A stretch of 64,000 nt of DNA from Mesorhizobium sp. Root554. GTDB lineage: Bacteria > Pseudomonadota > Alphaproteobacteria > Rhizobiales > Rhizobiaceae. The position numbers and the translations under genes are program-made. Below are positions 45,242 through 57,053 of this stretch, in pieces (positions within the stretch are counted from its first letter, which is position 1; the number at the start of each line of letters is the position of its first letter). The notes beneath the pieces are model-generated. The model worked only from the letters and a program-made list of their open reading frames with translations. It made no database searches and was not told the origin of the DNA. Location of the stretch: contig NZ_LMGA01000001.1 in NCBI RefSeq assembly GCF_001427025.1, forward strand, positions 2,498,722 to 2,562,721. Direction: 5' to 3'.

Positions 45242-46033
45242 ATGACAGACCCGACACCGCGCAAGACAGCAATCGTCACCGGCTCCACCTCCGGCATAGG
45301 CAAGGCGATTGCCGAGGCGTTGGCGGCCGCGGGCTGCAATGTCGTCGTCAATTCCTTTTCCGACACGCCTGCCGACCACAAGGTCGCCGCGACAATTGCG
45401 GCAAAACACGGTGTCAGGGCGCTCTATGTGAAGGCGGATATGTCGAAGGGTGCGGAATGCCGCGCGCTCGTCGAAAAGACGGCGCAGGCCTTCGGATCGG
45501 TCGACATTCTCGTCAACAATGCCGGCATCCAGCATGTTGCGCCGGTCCAGGACTTCCCGGCTGAAAAGTGGGACGCCATCATCGCCATCAACCTGTCCTC
45601 GGCCTTCCACACGATCGCCGCCGCCATACCGCTGATGAAGAACGCCGGCGGCGGCCGCATCGTCAACATCGCCTCGGCGCACGGGTTGGTCGCATCGCCG
45701 TTCAAGTCCGCTTATGTGGCGGCCAAGCATGGCATCATGGGCCTGACCAAGACGGTGGCGCTGGAATTGGCGCGGGAGAAGATCACCTGCAACGCCATCT
45801 GCCCCGGCTACGTGCTGACGCCGCTGGTCGAAGCGCAGATTCCCGACCAGATGAAGGCGCACAACATGGATCGTGAGACGGTCATCCGCGAAGTGATGCT
45901 GGAAAAGCAGCCGACGCGCGAATTCGTCAGCGTCGAGCAGGTCGCGGCGACCACTGTCTTCCTGTGTTCAGACGCCGCCGCGCAGATAAACGGCGCGCAT
46001 ATCTCGGTCGATGGCGGCTGGGTGGCGCAATAG
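45242..46033 (+). CDS. bdhA: D-3-hydroxybutyrate dehydrogenase (SDR)
   Basis: A 263-residue short-chain dehydrogenase that interconverts 3-hydroxybutyrate and acetoacetate in polyhydroxybutyrate turnover. TGSTSGIGKAIAEAL is the nucleotide loop, LVNNAGIQHVAPV follows, and the catalytic set is Ser (NIASAHGLVAS), Tyr and Lys (YVAAKHG). The HVAPVQDFP segment and VALELAREKITCNAICPGYVLTPLVEAQI are typical of this enzyme group. The frame is open to 45047, but the ATG at 45242 is the family start. A patatin phospholipase gene follows 47 bases later. Confidence 0.91.
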   Translation: MTDPTPRKTAIVTGSTSGIGKAIAEALAAAGCNVVVNSFSDTPADHKVAATIAAKHGVRALYVKADMSKGAECRALVEKTAQAFGSVDILVNNAGIQHVAPVQDFPAEKWDAIIAINLSSAFHTIAAAIPLMKNAGGGRIVNIASAHGLVASPFKSAYVAAKHGIMGLTKTVALELAREKITCNAICPGYVLTPLVEAQIPDQMKAHNMDRETVIREVMLEKQPTREFVSVEQVAATTVFLCSDAAAQINGAHISVDGGWVAQ

Positions 46034-46080
46034 GCAAGCCACCCAGTCCACATCTGAAAACCAATCGAAAGGACGACGCC

Positions 46081-47223
46081 ATGGCCGACAACGGCAAGGC
46101 GGAGGAGAAAAAGAAGATCAACGTCGCCCTGCAGGGCGGCGGCTCGCACGGCGCCTTTTCCTGGGGCGTGCTCGACCGGCTGCTGGAGGATGGCAGGTTG
46201 GAGATCGCCGCGATTTCCGGCACCAGCGCCGGCGCCATGAATGCTGTGGCGCTCGCCGACGGCTTCGTGCGCGGTGGAACCGAAGGCGCTCGCGAAAGGC
46301 TGGAAGCGCTGTGGCGCTCCGTGGCGCGCAAGGGCCGCTTCAGCCCTGTGCAGCGCGCGCCCTGGGATGTTCTGTGGGGCAACTGGTCGATCGAGAACAC
46401 GCCGGGTTATGTCTGGTTCGACACCATGTCGCGGGTATTCTCACCCTATGTCGCGAACCCGCTCGGCCTTAATCCACTGGCGGAAGCGGTGGCGCACGAG
46501 ATCGACTTCCGCAATGTGCGCGCCTGCAAATCGATGCAGCTCTTTATCTCGGCGACCAATGTCGAGACCGGCCAGCTGCGCGTCTTTTCCGATGGCGAGA
46601 TCGACCTCGATACGGTAATGGCCTCGGCCTGCCTGCCGCAGATATTCCGCGCCGTCGAGATCGACGGCGTGCCCTATTGGGATGGCGGCTATGGCGGAAA
46701 TCCGGCGTTGTTTCCGTTTTTCAAGGCAGCCGAGAGCGACGACGTCCTGCTGGTCCAGATCAACCCTGTCGTGCGCGAAGGCACGCCGAAGACCGCCAAC
46801 GAAATCCAGAATCGCGTCGATGAGATCACCTTCAACGCCGGCCTGCTGCGCGAATTCCGCTCCATAGCCTTTGTCAAGGAACTGATCGCCGCGGACCGCC
46901 TGCCGCACGGCGAATACAGAGACATCCGCATGCACCGCATCGATGCCGATGACGCCTTCAAGGATTTGTCGGCGTCGTCCAAGGTCAACGCCGAATGGGC
47001 GTTCCTCGAATATCTGTGCGACCTCGGCCGCACCGCCGCCAGCGACTGGCTGGAAACGAACTACGAAGCGGTTGGCAAAAGCGCCACGCTCGATCTCTCC
47101 GGTGAACTCGACGACGGATACAAGCCCGTGCAAGGCCCGGTGCGCACACCGAAGGCCGGCAACCGCGTCCGCGAATTTTTGGCGACCCGGCGCAAGCCCG
47201 CGGCGGTGCGCCGTCAGGCGTGA
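46081..47223 (+). CDS. Patatin-like phospholipase
   Basis: A 380-residue patatin-domain hydrolase. The oxyanion loop is LQGGGSHGAFSWG, the catalytic Ser lies in AISGTSAGAMNAV (GxSxG) and the dyad Asp in WDGGYGGNP. The C-terminal 130 residues resemble DUF3734. The ATG at 46081 (MADNGKAEEKKKINV) lies behind AAAGGAC; the frame extends upstream inside bdhA. Its place after bdhA fits polyhydroxybutyrate or lipid metabolism, but the substrate is unknown. The 3' end overlaps the convergent TetR gene by 10 bases. Confidence 0.88.
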   Translation: MADNGKAEEKKKINVALQGGGSHGAFSWGVLDRLLEDGRLEIAAISGTSAGAMNAVALADGFVRGGTEGARERLEALWRSVARKGRFSPVQRAPWDVLWGNWSIENTPGYVWFDTMSRVFSPYVANPLGLNPLAEAVAHEIDFRNVRACKSMQLFISATNVETGQLRVFSDGEIDLDTVMASACLPQIFRAVEIDGVPYWDGGYGGNPALFPFFKAAESDDVLLVQINPVVREGTPKTANEIQNRVDEITFNAGLLREFRSIAFVKELIAADRLPHGEYRDIRMHRIDADDAFKDLSASSKVNAEWAFLEYLCDLGRTAASDWLETNYEAVGKSATLDLSGELDDGYKPVQGPVRTPKAGNRVREFLATRRKPAAVRRQA

Positions 47224-47807
47224 AGCGCGAGGTCGATGACCTTGACCAAAGCGGCGACCGCCTGACGCTTCTCTTCCACATTGCTGATGCGCGACTTCAT
47301 GCCTTCCAGCCCATCGAGCAGGATGTCGGCGAGCTGAGGCGCGGAAAAGCTCTTGGCCGCCAGATCGATACGGCTGCGGGCGGCTTCCTCGTCTATGGCG
47401 TCCGCGATATGGCCGGCCAGCTGGTCGCGCCAGCACAGGGCGATATCGGCGACGATCGATTTCATGTCCAGGAGTTCAGCGCCGTGTGGAGAATCGCCGA
47501 TTTCCTGCATCATGCCGATCAGCCCCACTTCGATCGCATTCATCGCCCGTTGCGCGAAGGTGCCCTCGCGCTGAAGCGCCGCCTTTGCCGACTCGGCCGA
47601 ACGTCCGAGCAGCATCATGGCGGTGGCGCGGTAGATGTCGGTCTTGTTCTTGAACAGCAGATAGAGCGCCGGCCGCGACATGTCCGCCGCCTTGGCGATG
47701 TCGTCCATCGTGGTCCTGGCGAAGCCATAGGTCAGGAAGGTCTTGAACGCCCCATCCAGCACACGGGCGCGTTTCGGGTCTCCTGCAATGTCTTCGATTG
47801 CGGTCAC
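47214..47807 (-). CDS. TetR/AcrR family regulator
   Basis: A 197-residue repressor with an N-terminal helix-turn-helix (about residues 10-60, DPKRARVLDGAFKTFLTYGFARTTMDDIAKAADMSRPALYLLF by motif) and a divergent ligand-binding domain. The start is a GTG at 47807, preceded by AAGGAAGAG; the upstream frame to 47855 lies inside the operator and is unlikely. The inverted repeat at 47831-47855 lies just upstream of the start, between this gene and the divergent hydroxylase operon, so autoregulation and control of that operon are likely. Confidence 0.88.
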   Translation of the reverse strand: MTAIEDIAGDPKRARVLDGAFKTFLTYGFARTTMDDIAKAADMSRPALYLLFKNKTDIYRATAMMLLGRSAESAKAALQREGTFAQRAMNAIEVGLIGMMQEIGDSPHGAELLDMKSIVADIALCWRDQLAGHIADAIDEEAARSRIDLAAKSFSAPQLADILLDGLEGMKSRISNVEEKRQAVAALVKVIDLALHA

Positions 47808-47830
47808 GGCTCTTCCTTCAAAACAGCTTG

Positions 47831-47855
47831 TTGACAAAATGACGAACTTTGTCAA
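47831..47855. promoter_or_regulatory. TetR operator candidate (TTGACAAA-N9-TTTGTCAA)
   Basis: A perfect 8-bp inverted repeat with a 9-base spacer lies in the 66-base gap between the TetR gene and the divergent [2Fe-2S] gene. Each arm holds a TTGACA -35-like hexamer, one reading each way, so a bound repressor would block both promoters. This is the expected layout of a TetR autoregulatory operator. Confidence 0.68.
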
Positions 47856-47873
47856 GATGTCCAGAAGTTGGCG

Positions 47874-48383
47874 ATGAGCCGGCGGCTTCCGAACTGCATG
47901 GACGACAACGAGGGTATCCCCGTGCGCCTAACCGTCGACGGACAATCGATCGATATCGACGCAGATCCCGAAATGCCGTTGCTGTGGGCATTGCGCGACC
48001 TTGCCGGCAAGACCGGTCCCAAGTTCGGCTGCGGCATCGCCGCCTGCGGCGCCTGCACCGTGCATGTCGATGGTTCGCCCGTCCGGTCCTGTGTGTTGAA
48101 GGTGGGCGAGGTCCATGGGCCCGTCACCACCATCGAAGGCATCGGCAGCGCCGAAAAGCTGCATCCGGTCCAGCAGGCCTGGCTGGAGGAGCAGGTGGCG
48201 CAATGCGGCTACTGCCAGGCCGGACAGATCATGAGCGCCGTGGCGCTGCTGGACGAGGTCCCGAGCCCGACGGATGCCGACATCGACAACGCCATGGGCG
48301 GCAATCTGTGCCGTTGCGGCACCTACCCGAAGATCCGCGCCGCCATCAAGCGGGCAGCCGCGCTGAAGACGGCGGGGGCCTGA
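47874..48383 (+). CDS. [2Fe-2S] small subunit of a xanthine-oxidase-family molybdenum hydroxylase
   Basis: A 169-residue iron-sulfur protein of the IorA/CoxS type. The first cluster is bound by Cys53, Cys58, Cys61 and Cys73 in [17 protein letters not shown]; the second by Cys111, Cys114, Cys146 and Cys148 in [12 protein letters not shown] and LCRCGTYPK. It transfers electrons between the molybdenum centre and the outer acceptor. The start is uncertain: TTG 47868, ATG 47874 (AGAAG upstream) and ATG 47898 are all possible. The large subunit gene starts one base after the stop. Confidence 0.9.
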
Positions 48384-48384
48384 G

Positions 48385-50661
48385 ATGGCCAGCATCGGCA
48401 AGATCGCCCGCCGCGCCTTCCTGATTGGCGCTGCCGCCGTCGCCGGCGGCGTGGCCGTCGGCTACTACTATTACCGCAAGCCCTACGCCAATCCGCTTGA
48501 CGACCAGCTCGCGGCCGGCGAGGCGACCTTCAATCCCTATGTGAAGATCGCACCGGACAACACCATCACCATCATCGCGCCCCGCGAGGAAATGGGACAA
48601 GGCGTCTCGACCACCCTCGCCGCCCTTGTCGCCGAGGAACTGGACGTGACGCTGGAACAGGTGCGGGTGGAGCACGGCCCGACTTCGAAAGCCTATTACA
48701 ACGCCGCCATCCTGGAAGAGGGCGGTCCGTTCGCCTTCTTCGACGAGAGCACGCTGGCGGAAGCCACGCGCAACGGCATGGGCGTGGTGGGCAAGTTCCT
48801 CGGCCTGCAGGGCACCGGCGGTTCCTCGTCCATACGCGACGGGTGGGACAAGATGCGCCAGGCGGGCGCCGCAGCCCGCTTCATGCTCGTCGCCGCCGCC
48901 GCGCAACGGCTTGGCGTGCCGGCCGGCGAGCTTGAAACAGCGGACGGCAAGGTCCTGCACCGGCAGTCAGGCCGCACATTGACCTATGGCGAACTGGCTG
49001 CCGAGGCTGCTGCGAGGTCGCCGCCGTCCGAAGTCGCCTTGAAGGAGAAAAAGGACTGGAAGTTGCTCGGCAAACCGCAAAAGCGCGTCGACATGCTGGC
49101 CAAGGTCACCGGCGCGCCGGTCTTCGGCATCGATGTGAGGCTGCCGGAGATGCTGTACGGCACCGTCAAGTTCAGCCCGCGCTTCGGCGCGGCGCCTATA
49201 AGGACTGACCTCTCCAAAGCCGAAAAAATGCCGGGCGTGGTCAAGATCGTGCCGCTGGAGACGACATACGGCCACGGCTTCGGCGTCATCGCGCAAAATA
49301 CCTGGGCCGCCTTCAAGGCGGCTGAAGCGATCGAGGTCGAGTGGGGCAAGGCCGCCTATCCAGCCGATAGCGCCGCGATCGCGAAAACCCTGGCCGATGC
49401 CCTCGCCTCGAACGGCGGTTCGGCCATGCGCGACGACGGCGATGTCGATACCGCTTTCGCCGATGCGCCGCGCGAGAAGATCGTCGAGGCCGACTATTTC
49501 GTGCCGTATCTCGCCCACGCCACCATGGAGCCGATGAACGCGACGGCGCAGCTGAGGGACGGCGCGCTGGAAATCTGGTGCGGCAACCAGTCGCCAACGC
49601 TGGTGCGCGAGCAATGCGCCGCGGCTGTCGGCGTCGATCAGGACAGGGTCGTCGTCCACACCGCCTATCTCGGCGGCGGCTTCGGGCGGCGCATCGAGAT
49701 GGACTACGCGCTCTGCGCCGCGCTGATGGCCAGGGAAACGGAAGGACGACCCGTCAAGGTCACATGGACGCGCGAGGAGGACACGCGCCACGACACTTAT
49801 CGGCCGGCTGCGCTCGGCAAATTCCAGGCGCGCCTCGGCGATGACGGCCTGCCGGTGGCGATCGACATGAAGATCGCCTCGCCGTCGATCATGGCCAGCG
49901 TTCTGCGGCGTCTGTACCCGTCCATCCCGGCGCTCGGCCCGGACAAGACCATTGTCGACGGCGCCTACAACCAGCCCTATACCGTGCCGGATTACCGCGT
50001 CACCGCCATTGCCGCGCCCATCGATATTCCAATCGGCTTCTGGCGCTCGGTCGGCAATTCCGTCAACGGCTTCTTCCACGAGGGTTTCCTCGACGAGATC
50101 GCCATCGCCGGCAAGACCGACCCTGTCGAGTTGCGCCGCAAGCTGATGGCCGCCTACCCCGCCGCCGTGAAGGTCATCGAGAAGGTCGCCGAAATTTCGA
50201 AATGGAGTGAACCGCTGCCGGCCGGCAGAGCCAAGGGCGTCGCCTTCACGCAATCCTTCGGCAGCTGGGTGGCGGAGGTCGTGCAGGTCGCCGACACGCC
50301 CGCCGGCATCCGCATCGAGAAGGTCTGGATCGCCGCCGATGTCGGCACTGCGCTCGATCCCGGCATCATCGAGGCGCAGCTCGTCTCGGCCGCGGTCTAT
50401 GGCCTGTCCGCCGCCGTCAATCAGGAAATCACTTTCACCGACGGCGCGGTTGAACAATCGAATTTCCATGATTTCGACTGCATGCGCATCTTCCAGTGCC
50501 CGCAATTCGAAGTTGCGATCCTGGAGAACTATCACCGCATGGGCGGCGTCGGCGAAATCGCCACGCCGCCGGCAGCGCCGGCGCTCGCAAACGCCATTTT
50601 TGCACTGACCGGAAAGCGCCTGAGAAGTCTGCCCCTGTCCAGGGAGGTGCGCTTCGCATGA
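48385..50661 (+). CDS. Molybdopterin-binding large subunit, xanthine oxidase family, Tat-exported
   Basis: A 758-residue protein of the IorB/aldehyde-dehydrogenase type. MASIGKIARRAFLIGAAAVAGG is a twin-arginine signal, so the enzyme acts in the periplasm. The two aldehyde oxidase domains follow, and the catalytic Glu is retained in MGGVGEIATPPAAP near the C-terminus. Together with the small subunit it should hydroxylate an aldehyde or N-heterocycle, such as isoquinoline, quinoline or nicotinate types; the substrate cannot be named. There is no FAD subunit; instead a diheme cytochrome gene overlaps the 3' end by 4 bases. Confidence 0.9.
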   Translation: MASIGKIARRAFLIGAAAVAGGVAVGYYYYRKPYANPLDDQLAAGEATFNPYVKIAPDNTITIIAPREEMGQGVSTTLAALVAEELDVTLEQVRVEHGPTSKAYYNAAILEEGGPFAFFDESTLAEATRNGMGVVGKFLGLQGTGGSSSIRDGWDKMRQAGAAARFMLVAAAAQRLGVPAGELETADGKVLHRQSGRTLTYGELAAEAAARSPPSEVALKEKKDWKLLGKPQKRVDMLAKVTGAPVFGIDVRLPEMLYGTVKFSPRFGAAPIRTDLSKAEKMPGVVKIVPLETTYGHGFGVIAQNTWAAFKAAEAIEVEWGKAAYPADSAAIAKTLADALASNGGSAMRDDGDVDTAFADAPREKIVEADYFVPYLAHATMEPMNATAQLRDGALEIWCGNQSPTLVREQCAAAVGVDQDRVVVHTAYLGGGFGRRIEMDYALCAALMARETEGRPVKVTWTREEDTRHDTYRPAALGKFQARLGDDGLPVAIDMKIASPSIMASVLRRLYPSIPALGPDKTIVDGAYNQPYTVPDYRVTAIAAPIDIPIGFWRSVGNSVNGFFHEGFLDEIAIAGKTDPVELRRKLMAAYPAAVKVIEKVAEISKWSEPLPAGRAKGVAFTQSFGSWVAEVVQVADTPAGIRIEKVWIAADVGTALDPGIIEAQLVSAAVYGLSAAVNQEITFTDGAVEQSNFHDFDCMRIFQCPQFEVAILENYHRMGGVGEIATPPAAPALANAIFALTGKRLRSLPLSREVRFA

Positions 50662-51266
50662 GACGGTTTCTCATCATCCTGACGCCTGCTGCCATGTTGG
50701 CTGCGAGCGTTCATCTCGCACCTGCACAAGAGGCCGCGCCGCCGCCTGCCCTGGCGGTGGACACGGCCGCCGGACTGCCGCAATGGCAAAAGGTCTACGA
50801 GGTTTTTTCGCATCCGCGCTGCGCCAATTGCCATGTCGAGGACGACCGTCCGCGCTGGTCCGGCGCGCATTATGGCGCAACCCGCGTTCATGCCTTCAAT
50901 GTCCAACGCGGCACCGATGGTTCCGGCTTCGGCAATCCGGGCCTGCGCTGCACGACATGCCATTTCTCCAGCAATTCCAACATCTTGCATGGCCCTCCGG
51001 GGGCGCCAAACTGGCATCTGGCGCCGGCTGAAATGGTCTGGTTTGACAAATCGTCCGCCGAGATTTGCGCCCAGGTCAAGGACCCGGCCCGCAATGGCGG
51101 CCGCACATTGGCCGAAATCGCGGTGCATGTGCGCGACGACAAGCTGGTCGGCTGGGGATGGGCGCCCGGCCCCGGTCGGGAGCCCGCGCCAGGCTCCGCC
51201 GAAGAGACCTACCAGGCAATAGAGGCATGGTCGAAAGCCGGCGCTCCATGTCCGGCAATTGATTAG
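50658..51266 (+). CDS. Periplasmic diheme cytochrome c-like protein
   Basis: A 202-residue secreted protein with a signal peptide (residues 1-24, ending APAQ) and two CxxCH heme sites: Cys55-Ala-Asn-Cys58-His59 and Cys98-Thr-Thr-Cys101-His102. Its ATG overlaps the large-subunit stop (ATGA). It probably takes electrons from the molybdenum enzyme and passes them to the respiratory chain, replacing the FAD subunit of related enzymes. The C-terminal half has no further hemes; axial ligands cannot be assigned from sequence. 154 bases without a gene follow before the RND adaptor. Confidence 0.85.
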   Translation: MRRFLIILTPAAMLAASVHLAPAQEAAPPPALAVDTAAGLPQWQKVYEVFSHPRCANCHVEDDRPRWSGAHYGATRVHAFNVQRGTDGSGFGNPGLRCTTCHFSSNSNILHGPPGAPNWHLAPAEMVWFDKSSAEICAQVKDPARNGGRTLAEIAVHVRDDKLVGWGWAPGPGREPAPGSAEETYQAIEAWSKAGAPCPAID

Positions 51267-51420
51267 CCTTATCAACTTTTCTGACTGTTTTGCAGTGCAA
51301 CTATCGCGTAGAAGAACCCCGCCGATCACGGCAATTTGAACAAGGCCCAGCCGAACCCCATATGCGGCGGCGCCAGACCTTAACGGTGCTGACCGGTCAT
51401 CGCACGCTGGATTAGAGAAC

Positions 51421-52584
51421 ATGCGGAATTTCAAGTTTCACAAGCTCGCAGCTATTGTCGTGCTCATCGCCTTCGCGGCCTGGGTCGCCACCGGAGAATT
51501 CTCTTCGGTCGGCAGCGCCACCAACAGCGATGCCGAAAAGACGGACAATGCTGTCAAGCCGGCCGCGCAGCAGAACGCCGCCGAGCCGGAGAAGGCGCCG
51601 TTGCGCAAGGTCGGCGTCGTCGTGCCGCCGCGCAGCGAACATGCCCGCGCCATTCGCATCTCGGGCCTGACGGAAGCAGACAAGCGCGCGGTGCTTGCCA
51701 CGCGTGTCGGCGGCGTCATCGAGAAACTGCCGGTCAAGCAGGGCCAGCGCATCAAGGCCGGCGACCTGATCCTTGCGCTTGCCGCCGAGGAAAAGCAGTC
51801 CGCCGTGGCCAATGCCCAGCAGGTGCTGGTGCAGCGCCGCGCCGAGCTCAAGGCCGCCGAACGGCTGGCGCAGACGGGCAATATTCCAAAGCTCCAGCTC
51901 GATACGGCGCGCTCGGCCATGGCCGCGGCTGAATCACAGCTCGACGCCACCGAACAGGACCTCGCCCGCAACGAAGTGAAAGCGCCCTTCGATGGCATCG
52001 TCGATCGTGTTCCCGTGGAACTCGGCAGCGCCGTCATGCAGGGCGGCGAAGTCGCCACCGTGCTCAGCCTCGATCCTGTCATCGCGCGCGGCGAGGTCAG
52101 CGAACGCGACCTCCGCTATCTCAAGACCGGTGACAAGGCGAATGTCCGGCTGGTCAGCGGCAACAATGTCGAGGGCACGGTGCGCTACATCAGCCGCGAT
52201 GCGTCGTCGGCTACACGCACCTTCCGCATCGAGATCGCCATTCCGAATGCCGACGGCGCCATTCCAGCCGGCATGACCGCCGAGATAACGCTGGCCGCCC
52301 AGCCGACCGACGCGGTCGTTCTGCCGCGCTCCGTCGTCACCCTCGGTGACAAGGGCGATCTCGGCATCCGCGCCGTCGATAAGGACAACAAGGTCGTCTT
52401 CTATCCGATCGATCTGGTCGACGACACGCCGCAGGGCCTGGTGCTGGCCGGCATTCCCGCCGGTGCGAAGGTAATCGTACAGGGGCAGGATCTGGTCACG
52501 GAAGGCATTCAGGTCGACGCCGTCGATGCTGATCCTGCCGCGCTCAAGAAGCTGTTGGAAGACGCCGGGGCATCGACAAACTAG
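51421..52584 (+). CDS. RND efflux periplasmic adaptor (membrane fusion protein)
   Basis: A 387-residue adaptor. An N-terminal anchor (about residues 9-27) is followed by the lipoyl half-motif GVIEKLPVKQGQRIKAGDLILAL, a helical hairpin (VANAQQVLVQRRAELKAAERLAQTGNI), the second half ARNEVKAPFDGIVDRVPVELGSAV, and beta-barrel and membrane-proximal domains. It connects the inner-membrane pump to an outer-membrane channel, which is not encoded here. The ATG at 51421 is the first in the frame. The permease gene follows after 35 bases. Confidence 0.92.
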   Translation: MRNFKFHKLAAIVVLIAFAAWVATGEFSSVGSATNSDAEKTDNAVKPAAQQNAAEPEKAPLRKVGVVVPPRSEHARAIRISGLTEADKRAVLATRVGGVIEKLPVKQGQRIKAGDLILALAAEEKQSAVANAQQVLVQRRAELKAAERLAQTGNIPKLQLDTARSAMAAAESQLDATEQDLARNEVKAPFDGIVDRVPVELGSAVMQGGEVATVLSLDPVIARGEVSERDLRYLKTGDKANVRLVSGNNVEGTVRYISRDASSATRTFRIEIAIPNADGAIPAGMTAEITLAAQPTDAVVLPRSVVTLGDKGDLGIRAVDKDNKVVFYPIDLVDDTPQGLVLAGIPAGAKVIVQGQDLVTEGIQVDAVDADPAALKKLLEDAGASTN

Positions 52585-52619
52585 TCCTCCGGGACGCCGA
52601 ACGAACTGCAGGTCAAACC

Positions 52620-55600
52620 ATGGATATCGTCAAGCTTGCGATCAACAATGCGCGATTGACATTGTCGGTCCTCGTCTTCCTGATCATTGCCGGCGCTGTC
52701 GCTTACAAGAGCGTGCCGAAGGAAGCCGAACCCGACGTCGCCATTCCGATCATGTATGTGAGCCTCGTCTATCAGGGCATCTCGCCGGAAGACGCCGAAC
52801 GTCTTTTGTTGCGACCGGTCGAATCGCAGCTCAAGAGCCTCAAGGGGCTCAAGGAGATGAAGTCCAACGCCTATCAGGGCGGCGCCAATGTCATCGTCGA
52901 GTTCGACCCGTCGATCGATCTCGGCGACGCGCTGATCGACACCCGCAACAAGGTGCAGGACGCCAAGCGCGATCTGCCGAGCGGCGTCGAGGAGCCGACC
53001 GTCAACGAGGTCAATCTGTCCGAATTCCCGGTGATCTTCATCTCGCTGTCGGGCGACATGCCGGAGCGCGCGCTCACCACCGCGGCCAAGACGCTGCGCG
53101 ACCGCATCGAGGAAGTTCCGGGCGTCCTGGAAGGCGAAATCCAGGGCTCACGCGACGAACTGGTCGAGGCCATCATCGACCCGATGCGGCTTGCCTCATA
53201 CGGGCTGCGCCTCGACCAGATGATCCAGGGCATCGGCCAGTCGAACAGCCTCGTCGCAGCTGGCGCCATCGAAGGCGCGGAAGGCAAGTACGCGGTCAAG
53301 GTGCCGGCTTTGATCGAGACCCCGGAAGATGTCGCCAACCTGCCCGTCGTGGCTGGACCCAATGCCGTCGTCAAGGTGCGCGACCTCGCAACCGTCCGCT
53401 CGACCTTCAAGGATGCGGAAACGATCTCGCGCATCGACGGCAAGACCGCCATCACCATCGCGGTGAAAAAGCGCATCGGCGCCAATGTGGTCGAGACGAT
53501 CGAAGGTGCGAAGAAGGTGGCGGAGGAATTCGTCGCCCAGAACAAGGCGACCCTTCCCGATCTGAAACTGACCTACACCCAGGACAAGTCGACCTTCGTC
53601 AACCAGCTTCTCAACGACCTGCAGAACCATGTGATGATCGCGGTCATCCTGGTTTTCATCGTCATCCTGTACGCCTTGTCGGGCCGCGCTTCCCTGCTGA
53701 TCGGCCTCGCCATCCCGTCGTCGTTCCTGATGGGCATCCTGCTGCTGGCGCTGATGGGCTACACGATCAACATGATCGTGCTTTTCTCGCTGATCCTCGC
53801 GGTCGGCATGCTGGTCGATGACGCGATCATCGTGACCGAATATGCCGAGCGCCGCATGGCGGAAGGCATGAACAAGGTCCAGGCCTTCGAGGAGGCGGCC
53901 AAGCGCATGGCCGGCCCGGTGATCGCGGCGACGCTTACCCGTATCGCGGCCTTTTCGCCGCTGCTGTTCTGGCCGGGGATCGTCGGCGACTTCATGAAGT
54001 ATCTGCCGATCACGCTCATCGTCACGCTCGCGGCGTCGATGGCTTATGCGTTGATCTTCGCGCCGTCGATCGGCGCGATCATCGGCAAGGCGCCGAAGCA
54101 TGAAGAAAAGCATCGCGACGGACTGTACATGGGTATCGTCAAAAAGGCGGTGCATTTCCCGATTACCGCCGTGGTGCTGACCATCGCCCTGCTTGGCGGC
54201 GGCATGTTCGCCTATGTGAAATTCGGCAATGGCGTCGAGTTCTTCCCGGCGGTCGAGCCTGACTACGGCCTTCTCTACGTCCATGCGCGCGGCAACCTGT
54301 CGCTGAAGGAGATGGATACCGCCACCACCATCGCCGAACAGAGGATGCTCGGCTGGCCCGGCCTCAAATCCGTGCTGACCAAGGTCGGCAAGACGCGCGG
54401 CGGCCAGGACATTCCCGAAGACGTCATCGGTGTCATCAACTACGAGTTCGTCGATTGGCGTCAGCGTAAGCCGGCGCACGCCATCCTCGACGATCTGCGC
54501 AAGGCGATGGCCGGCATTCCCGGCGTCGACGTCGAGGTCCGCGTACCGGATGCGGGACCGCCGACAGGCAAGGCAATCCAGGTCGAGCTTTCGGCGACGG
54601 ATCCCACCGGCCTTAACGATTACGCGAAAAAGGTCGCCGGGGCGGTCGCCAAGGTTCCGGGAGTCATCGACATGACCGACGGCTTGCCGCCACCGGGCGT
54701 CGACTGGAACCTCGTCGTCGATCGCGCCAAGGCCGCCCAGTACAATGTGTCGCCGACGGCGGTCGGCACGGTCGTGCAGCTGGTCACGACGGGCCTGAAG
54801 CTGACCGACTATCGTCCGCCGGGCGCCGACGACGCCGTCGATATCAGGCTGCGCCTGCCAGAGGATCGCCGCACGCTGTCGTCGCTTGACGAGCTTCGCG
54901 TCGAAACCGCCGAAGGCTCGGTGCCGATCTCGAACTTCGTCACGCGGAGTCCCGAACAGACGGTCGGCATCCTCAACCGCATCGACGGCAAGCGTACCAT
55001 CACCATCCAGGCGAATGTCGCCAGCGGCTTTCAGGTCGCCGAGGTCCAGGCCGCCGTCACCAAGGTCGTCGGCGAGATGGCGCAGCCGGGCATCGACTGG
55101 AAACTGGCCGGCTCCAACGAGGACAGCGCCGAGGCGGGCGCGTTCCTGGCCAAGGCCTTCGGCGCGGCGATGTTCCTGATCTGCATCGTGCTGCTGGCGC
55201 AGTTCAACAAGTTCACCAGCGTGTTCCTGGTGCTGACCTGCGTCGTCATGGCCATCGTCGGCGCCCTGCTCGGCATGCTGCTGACGGGCCAGACCTTCGT
55301 CATCGTCATGTCCGGCATCGGCTTCATCGCGCTGGCCGGCGTCGTGGTGAACAACAACATCGTGCTGATCGATACCTACGACCGGTTGCGCGAGGAAGGC
55401 TGGGACAAGCTCGAAGCCGTGCTGCAGACCTGCCGCGAACGTGCGCGGCCGGTGGTGCTGACGGCGTTGTCGGCCATTCTCGGCGTGCTGCCGATCGCCT
55501 TCGGACTGGGCCTGGAAATCTTCCACCGCGAGACGACGATCAACGCGCCGTCGACGCAGTGGTGGATCGCGTTGTCCTCGGCGATCGTCTTCGGCCTGTC

Positions 55601-55787
55601 CTTCGCCACCGTTCTGACGCTGATCGTGACGCCGTCCATGCTGATGATCTTCACGCGCAGCAACGACAGCAAGGTCCACGCTTTCTTCCGCCGCCTGTTC
55701 AAGCGCGGCAAGGGCAAGGTGTCGAGCGAAGCCGAGCCTCAGCTCTCAACCGAAACGGATGTGGCCTACCCCAAGGCCGCCGAATAG
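52620..55787 (+). CDS. RND efflux permease (AcrB/MexF-like superfamily)
   Basis: A 1055-residue inner-membrane proton-driven pump. MDIVKLAINNARLTLSVLVFLI opens the first helix; TM4 has VGMLVDDAIIVTEYAERR with the adjacent proton-relay Asp pair; GIGFIALAGVVVNNNIVLIDTYDRLREEG marks the second half. It belongs to the broad drug/lipid/organic substrate RND group; substrate not assignable. Downstream is a strong terminator (55811-55839). Same strand and 154 bases after the cytochrome gene, it could belong to the TetR-controlled unit or stand alone. Confidence 0.93.
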   Translation: MDIVKLAINNARLTLSVLVFLIIAGAVAYKSVPKEAEPDVAIPIMYVSLVYQGISPEDAERLLLRPVESQLKSLKGLKEMKSNAYQGGANVIVEFDPSIDLGDALIDTRNKVQDAKRDLPSGVEEPTVNEVNLSEFPVIFISLSGDMPERALTTAAKTLRDRIEEVPGVLEGEIQGSRDELVEAIIDPMRLASYGLRLDQMIQGIGQSNSLVAAGAIEGAEGKYAVKVPALIETPEDVANLPVVAGPNAVVKVRDLATVRSTFKDAETISRIDGKTAITIAVKKRIGANVVETIEGAKKVAEEFVAQNKATLPDLKLTYTQDKSTFVNQLLNDLQNHVMIAVILVFIVILYALSGRASLLIGLAIPSSFLMGILLLALMGYTINMIVLFSLILAVGMLVDDAIIVTEYAERRMAEGMNKVQAFEEAAKRMAGPVIAATLTRIAAFSPLLFWPGIVGDFMKYLPITLIVTLAASMAYALIFAPSIGAIIGKAPKHEEKHRDGLYMGIVKKAVHFPITAVVLTIALLGGGMFAYVKFGNGVEFFPAVEPDYGLLYVHARGNLSLKEMDTATTIAEQRMLGWPGLKSVLTKVGKTRGGQDIPEDVIGVINYEFVDWRQRKPAHAILDDLRKAMAGIPGVDVEVRVPDAGPPTGKAIQVELSATDPTGLNDYAKKVAGAVAKVPGVIDMTDGLPPPGVDWNLVVDRAKAAQYNVSPTAVGTVVQLVTTGLKLTDYRPPGADDAVDIRLRLPEDRRTLSSLDELRVETAEGSVPISNFVTRSPEQTVGILNRIDGKRTITIQANVASGFQVAEVQAAVTKVVGEMAQPGIDWKLAGSNEDSAEAGAFLAKAFGAAMFLICIVLLAQFNKFTSVFLVLTCVVMAIVGALLGMLLTGQTFVIVMSGIGFIALAGVVVNNNIVLIDTYDRLREEGWDKLEAVLQTCRERARPVVLTALSAILGVLPIAFGLGLEIFHRETTINAPSTQWWIALSSAIVFGLSFATVLTLIVTPSMLMIFTRSNDSKVHAFFRRLFKRGKGKVSSEAEPQLSTETDVAYPKAAE

Positions 55788-55810
55788 GGATCTGGCTAAC
55801 AACGCAAAAA

Positions 55811-55839
55811 GGCCGTCCGGGAACCCCGGACGGCCTTTT
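55811..55839 (+). terminator. Intrinsic terminator after the RND operon
   Basis: GGCCGTCCGGG and CCCGGACGGCC form a perfect 11-bp stem with an AAC loop, followed by TTTT. It begins 24 bases after the RND permease stop. A-run AAAAA upstream makes the element able to act in both directions. Confidence 0.92.
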
Positions 55840-55882
55840 CGCATTGTTGTGTCATTGCAACATTCCCAAGCGAGGGCTTGTC

Positions 55883-56041
55883 ATGACGCTTAGTACACTT
55901 CTCATCATTATTTTGGTTCTTATCCTCATTGGCGCCGTTCCAAGCTGGCCTTATTCGCGCAGCTGGGGCTATGGCCCGTCCGGTATCGTCGGCGTGATTC
56001 TGGTCGTGGTGCTGATCCTGCTTCTCATGGGCCGGATCTGA
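55883..56041 (+). CDS. DUF3309 family small membrane protein
   Basis: A 52-residue peptide with two hydrophobic helices flanking the family motif SWPYSRSWGYGPSGIVG, ending LLLMGRI. DUF3309 proteins are common in alphaproteobacteria and Burkholderia; function unknown. It lies between two strong terminators (55811-55839 and 56064-56095), so it is its own transcription unit. The frame is open upstream inside the RND gene, but the ATG at 55883 begins the family motif. Confidence 0.9.
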   Translation: MTLSTLLIIILVLILIGAVPSWPYSRSWGYGPSGIVGVILVVVLILLLMGRI

Positions 56042-56063
56042 CCCATTTCCCGAGTACTCGAGC

Positions 56064-56095
56064 GGCGGATGCTTGCCGGCATCCGCCACTTTTTT
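56064..56095 (+). terminator. Intrinsic terminator after the DUF3309 gene
   Basis: GGCGGATGC (56064-56072) and GCATCCGCC (56079-56087) form a 9-bp stem with a 6-base loop, followed by ACTTTTTT. It lies 23 bases past the DUF3309 stop and just before the stop of the convergent epimerase gene. Confidence 0.9.
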
Positions 56096-56099
56096 GCTG

Positions 56100-57053
56100 T
56101 CAGGCTGCCTGCGATTCCACCGGCAACAGCGCAAGATCACGCAGCGCTTCCCGCGCCGCCTGATCCAGGGGTGTTCGGGGGATTTCGCCGATGAGGCTTG
56201 CCAGGCGGTCCGACGCAAGCCGGTGCGCCTCGAACCGCAGATAGGACATCGACACGATGGCGCGCCACATCGGCACGAACGGGCTGCCGGCGCGGAGCAC
56301 CCACCATGGCATCGAGGCCAACTTGAGCGGCCGGACCATCGTCTTCTCGACCGCCGCCTTCATCTCCAGTTCGGTCACGGCATGGCCGGGTAGATGCAGC
56401 GCCTCATAGGCACCCATCCTGTCCAGGTTCTGCGCCAGCATCACGAACCCGCGGGCGAAATCCGGCAGATAGACCCACTCATGGACAAGGTCCACCGGTC
56501 CGGCGGCGGTGTAGACGCCCTTTTCAACTTTCGAGGCCGTCACCAGGTCGAACCATGAACCGGTCCCCTTGCCGCCGAAGAAATCGCCGGCCCGCAGCAG
56601 CACGGTGCGGACGCGGCCGGCTTCGGCTTCGCTGCGGAAAAGCGTTTCCATGGCGACGCGGATGCGCCCCTTCTCCGTCGTCGGATGCTGCGGCGTCTCT
56701 TCGGTCAGTACGGCGGGGATGGGCGAGCCGTAATTATAGACGGTGCCCGGAAACAGATGCACCGCACCGTTGACCGCGCAGGCCGCCATGACGTTTTCCG
56801 CCATCGGCAGCACGCTGCTCCAGTCCGAATAAACCGGGCTGAGCCCGTTGAAGACGATGTCGAACCCTTGCGTTGTCTGGGTCAGCGCCTCCCGATCCAG
56901 CGCGTCGGCCGTGATGGCAGTCACGCCTGCGAGTTCAGCCGGAAGCTTGCCGCTCCGGGTCACGCCGCCGACATCGTAGCCGGCGTCGAGAAAGGCCTTT
57001 GCCACGGCGCGGCCAAGCCGTCCGCTCGCGCCGAGAACTGCAATGCTGGTCAT
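56100..57053 (-). CDS. NAD-dependent epimerase/dehydratase family protein
   Basis: A 317-residue extended SDR with the nucleotide loop VLGASGRLGRAVAKAFLD at the start, VTAITADALDR and a FGGKGTGSWFDL segment. The usual YxxxK catalytic pair is not obvious (VYNYGSPIP takes the Tyr position), so it may be an atypical or NmrA-like sensor member. It is divergent from a LysR regulator, and the 98-base gap carries the shared promoter, which suggests LysR control. Substrate unknown. Confidence 0.82.
   Translation of the reverse strand: MTSIAVLGASGRLGRAVAKAFLDAGYDVGGVTRSGKLPAELAGVTAITADALDREALTQTTQGFDIVFNGLSPVYSDWSSVLPMAENVMAACAVNGAVHLFPGTVYNYGSPIPAVLTEETPQHPTTEKGRIRVAMETLFRSEAEAGRVRTVLLRAGDFFGGKGTGSWFDLVTASKVEKGVYTAAGPVDLVHEWVYLPDFARGFVMLAQNLDRMGAYEALHLPGHAVTELEMKAAVEKTMVRPLKLASMPWWVLRAGSPFVPMWRAIVSMSYLRFEAHRLASDRLASLIGEIPRTPLDQAAREALRDLALLPVESQAA

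Follow-up and report, generated by a model that had tools for sequence, protein, structure and literature searches.

IorAB, the isoquinoline 1-oxidoreductase of Brevundimonas (Pseudomonas) diminuta, has a two-subunit architecture without a flavin adenine dinucleotide (FAD) subunit, and the three-subunit aldehyde dehydrogenase of Gluconobacter includes a larger, triheme, membrane-bound cytochrome. Here we analyze a locus of Mesorhizobium sp. Root554 that lies in a 64,000-nucleotide stretch of contig NZ_LMGA01000001.1 (positions 2,498,722 to 2,562,721; hereafter the window). A divergent TetR-family regulator gene and a palindrome precede genes for a [2Fe-2S] (FeS) subunit, a molybdopterin (Mo) large subunit with a twin-arginine translocation (Tat) signal and a small diheme c-type cytochrome, followed on the same strand by a resistance-nodulation-division (RND) pump (Table 1). 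We use "cassette" for the TetR gene, the putative operator and the FeS-Mo genes, usually with the cytochrome gene. With somewhat better than even confidence, we read the locus as a TetR-switched, Tat-exported FeS-Mo cassette that likely oxidizes an aldehyde, has an optional cytochrome and sits beside an independent pump.

Two described systems resemble this arrangement, PS417_10890-10880 of P. simiae, which acts on deoxyribose, and PP_3621-3623 of P. putida, which acts on vanillin. In the excerpts of PMC6365646 on which we draw, both share with the window a [2Fe-2S] subunit, a Tat-signal Mo subunit and a cytochrome c encoded in one putative operon. For such IorAB-like enzymes with a cytochrome gene, those excerpts report that vanillin oxidation was linked by genetics and deoxyribose oxidation by genetics together with lysate assays, and that the authors suspect oxidation in the periplasm. 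The systems are compared here by description only: the same excerpts describe a membrane anchor for the cytochrome and, unlike the window locus, mention neither a TetR operator nor a pump. By description, IorAB itself shares the FAD-less two-subunit layout and differs in that the excerpts place no cytochrome gene near iorB (PMC6365646). Among the partial texts returned by a literature search, we found no report that combines a TetR regulator, a molybdenum hydroxylase and RND efflux, and the available part of PMC9774640 bears on TetR structures alone.

We compared the locus with 99 Mesorhizobium genomes (G), an even draw from the larger genus in which protein searches scored only the best first-look candidates of each genome (8 to 32), and with 80 named loci (L), the best of 581 confirmed Mo-subunit matches. 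The two sets include some of the same strains (L073, for example, is G040) and are not independent. Orthologs in the 99 genomes were accepted at E ≤ 1e-25 for TetR, E ≤ 1e-200 for the permease and at least 76% identity for the Mo subunit. We found that the TetR ortholog, the exact palindrome and the Mo subunit occur in an identical set of 27 genomes. The exact arms with their 9-bp spacer are present once in each of these and absent from the other 72, a backward control pattern was found in none of the 99, and G069, which carries only a 41% Mo paralog, falls outside the set. Because TetR, palindrome and Mo subunit share the same 27 genomes they behave as one unit, and we conclude that TetR, operator and FeS-Mo genes probably form one co-inherited, self-regulated unit. 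Additionally, the whole gene order with exact arms recurs in 17 of 20 relatives' loci picked by their match to the cytochrome, which excludes a chance arrangement; of the remaining three, L032 lacks the cassette, and L033 and L034 are paralogous clusters.

The palindrome, TTGACAAAATGACGAACTTTGTCAA, has perfect 8-bp arms around its 9-bp spacer. A scan of the window at up to three mismatches gave this one match, compared with a mean of 0.04 in shuffled sequence (4 of 100 shuffles had one), and the 3.75-Mb genome holds a single exact copy. With three mismatches allowed, the genome contains seven further places, compared with two for the backward control pattern at the same tolerance. The arms are exact although the core Mesorhizobium TetR proteins are just 64-70% identical to the window's TetR, and several spacer columns are near-invariant across 28 loci. 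Diverged sites were searched for with a matrix built from the exact sites and compared with 200 shuffles per locus. Fifteen named loci that lack exact arms, including ones from Notoacmeibacter, Ahrensia, Rhizobium, Rhizobiales, Rhizobiaceae and Mesorhizobium LHD-90, have 25-bp sites of the form NTGACA-N13-TGTCAN between the TetR and FeS genes, each of which outscores all 200 shuffles.

The regulator is predicted to adopt a TetR fold (predicted local distance difference test, pLDDT, 91.7). Its nearest solved folds are 3f0c and EthR at Z scores of 16-17, and many other TetR proteins lie no more than three Z units behind; since such matches are general across TetR proteins, the fold search names no ligand. 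EthR and other TetR repressors share with the window both the fold and the layout of a divergent gene with a palindrome between, and the window's TetR is 15-17% identical to the two best-matching solved families. Pfam gave no TetR C-terminal domain for any of 47 TetR relatives. Among the 80 named loci, 59 have a divergent homologous TetR gene 5′ of the FeS gene, a distribution that reaches from Mesorhizobium to Ruegeria, and at the Pseudovibrio locus L096 an unrelated TetR of the TetR_C_34 type occupies this position.

By sequence, the FeS and Mo subunits are an exported molybdenum hydroxylase of a known kind. The small subunit has the Fer2/Fer2_2 domains and the large subunit the molybdopterin domains of IorAB-like members of the xanthine oxidase family, the two genes are adjacent and followed by the cytochrome gene, and the operon contains no gene for an FAD-binding subunit. 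The Mo subunit carries ARRAFLIG near its N terminus. Its best solved relative over nearly the whole length is 8gy3_C (E = 4.1e-81), the large subunit of a membrane-bound aldehyde dehydrogenase that presumably comes from Gluconobacter, and its GVGE aligns with the GLGE of 8gy3, which we take to be the catalytic glutamate motif. The window's cytochrome, with two CXXCH motifs, differs from the triheme subunit of the Gluconobacter enzyme. An XdhC-type maturation factor lies near two loci of distant genera, L114 (by Pfam and NCBIfam) and L176 (by eye only), and no common catabolic pathway was recognized among the neighbors in distant genera, most of which were not run against the library. In M. loti DSM 2626 (L021 and L104, by length one and the same contig), an apparent frameshift, real or a sequencing error, interrupts the Mo gene near residue 283.

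We favor an aldehyde as the most likely substrate because the closest relative of solved structure is an aldehyde dehydrogenase and the known IorAB-like cytochrome enzymes have been linked to oxidation of vanillin or deoxyribose. The enzyme could instead be a catabolic N-heterocycle hydroxylase of the isoquinoline or quinoline type, as the IorAB-like architecture without an FAD subunit would allow, and the lack of a nearby cytochrome gene at the original iorAB (PMC6365646, in the excerpts cited) fits a cytochrome that is dispensable here. We consider this unlikely: a quinoline enzyme matches the Mo subunit at E = 2.7e-12, far more weakly than 8gy3, although the comparison is indirect in that the isoquinoline enzyme is not among the solved-structure matches. 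An NAD-type aldehyde dehydrogenase that occupies the same chromosomal slot in 32 of the 99 genomes also argues for aldehyde chemistry, with the reservation that its arrival may be one event.

The cytochrome is, from its distribution and conservation, a usual but optional partner of the enzyme. It has 202 residues with the CXXCH motifs CANCH and CTTCH, its start overlaps the Mo stop as ATGA, and all six C and H of the two motifs are invariant among 27 aligned cytochromes. Neither NCBIfam nor, at E ≤ 0.001, Pfam has a model that matches it; the commonest Pfam matches of its family are weak c7/MtrC-like ones, with best E of 0.0006 to 0.0009 among the 27 members. A PDB search returned nothing significant (best E = 2.2), and the predicted structure has a mean pLDDT of 61.2 with residues 57-123 below 50. 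A search of 289 genomes of the class found, besides the window's own, 12 relatives in 11 genomes, of which nine lie directly beside FeS-Mo genes and three elsewhere. Within the 27 enzyme-bearing genomes of the genus, the cytochrome gene is intact in 18, truncated at a contig end in one and broken in eight; it counts as broken where none of the open frames separating the Mo gene from the pump contains the two CXXCH motifs together. All eight of these genomes have an open Mo gene. Three comparisons among the broken-cytochrome lineages L156, L061, L069 and L106 gave ratios of nonsynonymous to synonymous substitution rates in the Mo subunit of 0.145, 0.152 and 0.163, as expected if the enzyme still works despite the broken cytochrome. 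In a quickly built tree of 50 pump sequences, made without bootstrap, the broken L156 and L061 fall in one clade with the intact L018 and the broken L073 lies beside the intact L031; because broken and intact cases interleave, breakage probably happened more than once.

An initial annotation of this DNA had placed a TetR gene, a perfect palindrome, an FeS subunit, a Tat-signal Mo subunit, a diheme cytochrome with a 4-base overlap and RND genes here, and all are where it put them. Its reading of these as an exported molybdenum hydroxylase linked to a TetR gene and partnered by a cytochrome is supported by sequence. The cytochrome is a frequent partner, and because eight of the 27 genomes have it broken beside an open enzyme gene, it is not obligatory.

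The same annotation had suggested that the pump expels a compound which the enzyme detoxifies; that the pump belongs to the same unit is not borne out. The permease has a match in 95 of the 99 genomes, two of them fragments (G007 and G024), as against 27 for TetR, operator and enzyme, so that 68 genomes, two of them represented by the fragments, have the pump without the cassette. Between the cytochrome and adaptor genes is a 154-base non-coding gap, missed in the initial annotation, whose sequence is conserved in all 17 cassette loci compared and in 16 of 19 cassette-less loci (z of 8 or more, identity 66-80%). The block is missing from L157, L158 and L159, all of them second pump copies. Its conservation at loci of both kinds is most simply explained by a promoter or leader belonging to the pump itself, and we suggest that the block is probably that, a regulator site being another possibility. 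In eight loci of other lineages the block was recognizable in five (z of 4.6 to 12), and L092 gave no result. We conclude from these comparisons that the pump is most likely an independently kept neighbor and not part of the cassette. It has both a permease and a periplasmic adaptor, as in tripartite RND systems, and no outer-membrane channel gene was noticed beside it. The permease belongs to the same family as TriC/AcrB-type permeases; its top solved match is 6vej, presumably TriC, marginally ahead of other RND pumps. TriABC-type pumps have two adaptor genes, and the window's pump differs in having one, before the permease. The second pump copies L157, L158 and L159 lie beside genes that, judged by eye, are like those of ATP-binding cassette (ABC) transporters.

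Several observations weigh against the account given so far. Twenty Ruegeria-type loci carry this TetR with the site weak or absent; it beats all 200 shuffles in nine of them and is equaled by 1 to 46 shuffles in the others. No TetR match lies beside the FeS gene in 21 of the 80 named loci, one of which (L085) is cut by a contig end. The palindrome arms resemble -35 hexamers, and some of their conservation may reflect a promoter. Taken further, the palindrome would be two facing -35 boxes of divergent promoters and not a TetR operator, since TTGACA begins both arms, one on each strand. We think this quite improbable. The arms are 8 bp, longer than hexamers, and several spacer columns are near-invariant; the left arm contains CTGACA in 9 of the 15 diverged sites; and in the 99 genomes the site is never found without the TetR gene. 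A sigma-70 promoter scan of 47700-52700 scored none against 1.2 expected by chance, although alphaproteobacterial promoters may escape such a scan. For the enzyme, all NCBIfam equivalog scores are far below their cut-offs, the best for the FeS subunit being glyceraldehyde dehydrogenase gamma (143.8 bits, cut-off 290), and the substrate assignment is for this reason a guess.

The other opposing points concern the pump, and they are also what favors a single TetR-controlled detoxification operon, in which enzyme, cytochrome and RND pump would act on the same toxic compound. When gene order was checked in relatives, as the initial annotation had proposed, it proved conserved: the pump lay directly 3′ of the Mo gene in 26 of the 27 enzyme-bearing genomes, the 27th (G014) ending at a contig edge; this adjacency check left out G024. 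The pump is also 3′ of the enzyme in 28 of the 80 named loci, across several genera. No plus-strand terminator-like site was found between the cytochrome and adaptor genes, and for this reason read-through from enzyme to pump is possible; the strong hairpin is reached only 3′ of the permease gene. Additionally, the upstream block is unrecognizable in L076 and L086. We nevertheless consider a single operon doubtful, given the pump's much wider distribution and an upstream block that is conserved irrespective of the cassette. In 51 of the 80 named loci (L067 being cut by a contig end) the 6 kb 3′ of the enzyme contain nothing that matches this pump, and at L107 the match is of 24% only. The patatin-like gene on the other side of the cassette also stays put, which makes linkage alone weak evidence.

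On the pump tree the cassette label requires 10 changes, at least nine of them forced by well-supported (starred) branches, and the cassette is present in lineages outside the genus; the no-cassette label includes the second pump copies L157 and L158, from cassette genomes, and L159, from a cassette-less genome. Cytochrome remnants lie 5′ of the pump at the cassette-less loci L032 and L160 (clear) and L144 and L147 (weaker, each beating all 60 shuffles), and because of these remnants we conclude that the cassette was lost at some loci. As a further point against a simple account, L076, which lies closest to the window's pump on the tree, combines a permease 88% identical to that of the window with a TetR 53% identical and a Mo subunit 76% identical; given these values, the history of the cassette is not simply vertical, and it may have been exchanged between lineages. 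The window's own genome (G000) is 3.75 Mb at a completeness of 100, and most of the drawn genus members are 6-8 Mb. The cassette is retained in this small genome and absent from its small-genome pump relatives G006 and G051.

In 9 of 19 cassette-less pump loci the patatin-like gene and the pump stand in the usual order and TetR, FeS and Mo genes are absent from the interval, and in the other 10 the stretch has no patatin match. An aldehyde dehydrogenase (PF00171) lies just 5′ of the pump in 32 of the 99 genomes, none of which has the cassette (for example L149:5507-6937, in G071), and its best NCBIfam match is the benzaldehyde dehydrogenase MdlD, below the cut-off. Of 75 aldehyde dehydrogenase matches in the 99 genomes, 45 entered the adjacency check; none of the other 30, examined separately, lies within 10 kb of the pump. 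In G007 and G043 the enzyme is present and the slot not assessable (pump on another contig or unmatched). On the pump tree the five loci with this gene group in a single clade, and other genomes have a relative of it at a different place; because one event may account for this, the slot aldehyde dehydrogenase is a weak hint of aldehyde chemistry. A speculative extension, to which we give little credence, is that the patatin-like gene and the pump's upstream block bound an exchangeable slot for aldehyde handling. It would hold either the Mo cassette (27 of 99 genomes, 26 shown to be pump-adjacent) or the NAD-type aldehyde dehydrogenase (32 of 99) and never both, two unrelated oxidizing enzymes having been recruited to the same job beside a constitutive pump, and the diheme cytochromes would be a family of dedicated, optional electron acceptors.

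In the mechanism we propose, TetR would bind the 25-bp palindrome and repress both its own gene and the enzyme genes until released by a ligand, probably the substrate of the enzyme or a related compound. The FeS and Mo subunits would form an FAD-less IorAB-like hydroxylase that, from its sequence and from what is known of the family, is predicted to be exported folded through the Tat signal of the large subunit. In the periplasm it would oxidize a small compound, most likely an aldehyde, and pass electrons to the diheme cytochrome, with another periplasmic acceptor taking over in genomes whose cytochrome gene is broken. The pump, with a conserved upstream region of its own, would receive at most read-through from the cassette.

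Table 1. Features of the Mesorhizobium sp. Root554 locus, in window coordinates.
Feature	Coordinates	Strand	Evidence and remarks
Patatin-like phospholipase gene	46081..47223	+	Patatin, E = 2.9e-19; left border marker of the cassette slot, outside the module
TetR-family regulator	47214..47807	-	TetR_N, E = 9.6e-14; divergent from the enzyme genes
25-bp putative operator, TTGACAAA-N9-TTTGTCAA	47831..47855	.	Divergent intergenic region; operator function inferred
[2Fe-2S] small subunit, IorA/CoxS-like	47898..48383	+	Fer2, Fer2_2
Molybdopterin large subunit, IorB-like, twin-arginine signal	48385..50661	+	MoCoBD_1, MoCoBD_2
Small diheme c-type cytochrome, apparent signal peptide	50658..51266	+	Two CXXCH; 4-base overlap with the preceding gene
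Conserved block upstream of the pump, probable separate promoter or leader (function inferred)	51267..51420	+	Conservation
RND periplasmic adaptor	51421..52584	+	TIGR01730, 178.7 bits (cut-off 94.9)
RND permease	52620..55787	+	ACR_tran, E = 1.1e-162
Terminator-like hairpin 3′ of the pump	55798..55848	.	24-nt arms, 92% complementary, loop of 3, T-run

The TetR gene is given from a GTG start that we chose. On the right, the pump is followed by the long near-perfect hairpin, likewise missed in the initial annotation, which has an A-run before it as well as a T-run after it and is possibly a bidirectional terminator. In positions 47000-56500, five Rfam matches were obtained at E ≤ 1, none reaching its gathering score; four lie on the hairpin and one inside the permease gene. 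On the left, window positions 45257-47223 hold a short-chain dehydrogenase gene and then the patatin-like gene, an arrangement that we take to resemble a 3-hydroxybutyrate dehydrogenase/patatin pair.

These comparisons carry a caution, that conserved gene order is not the same as joint function: the neighboring pump appears to be conserved for reasons of its own. They also bring out a family of small diheme cytochromes, without Pfam or NCBIfam assignment, that are likely electron acceptors of such enzymes. The hydroxylase branch to which the enzyme belongs is widespread in plant-associated and marine Alphaproteobacteria, and the regulator-operator pair, with one exact site per genome, would offer a route to the substrate of this exported branch of molybdenum hydroxylases.

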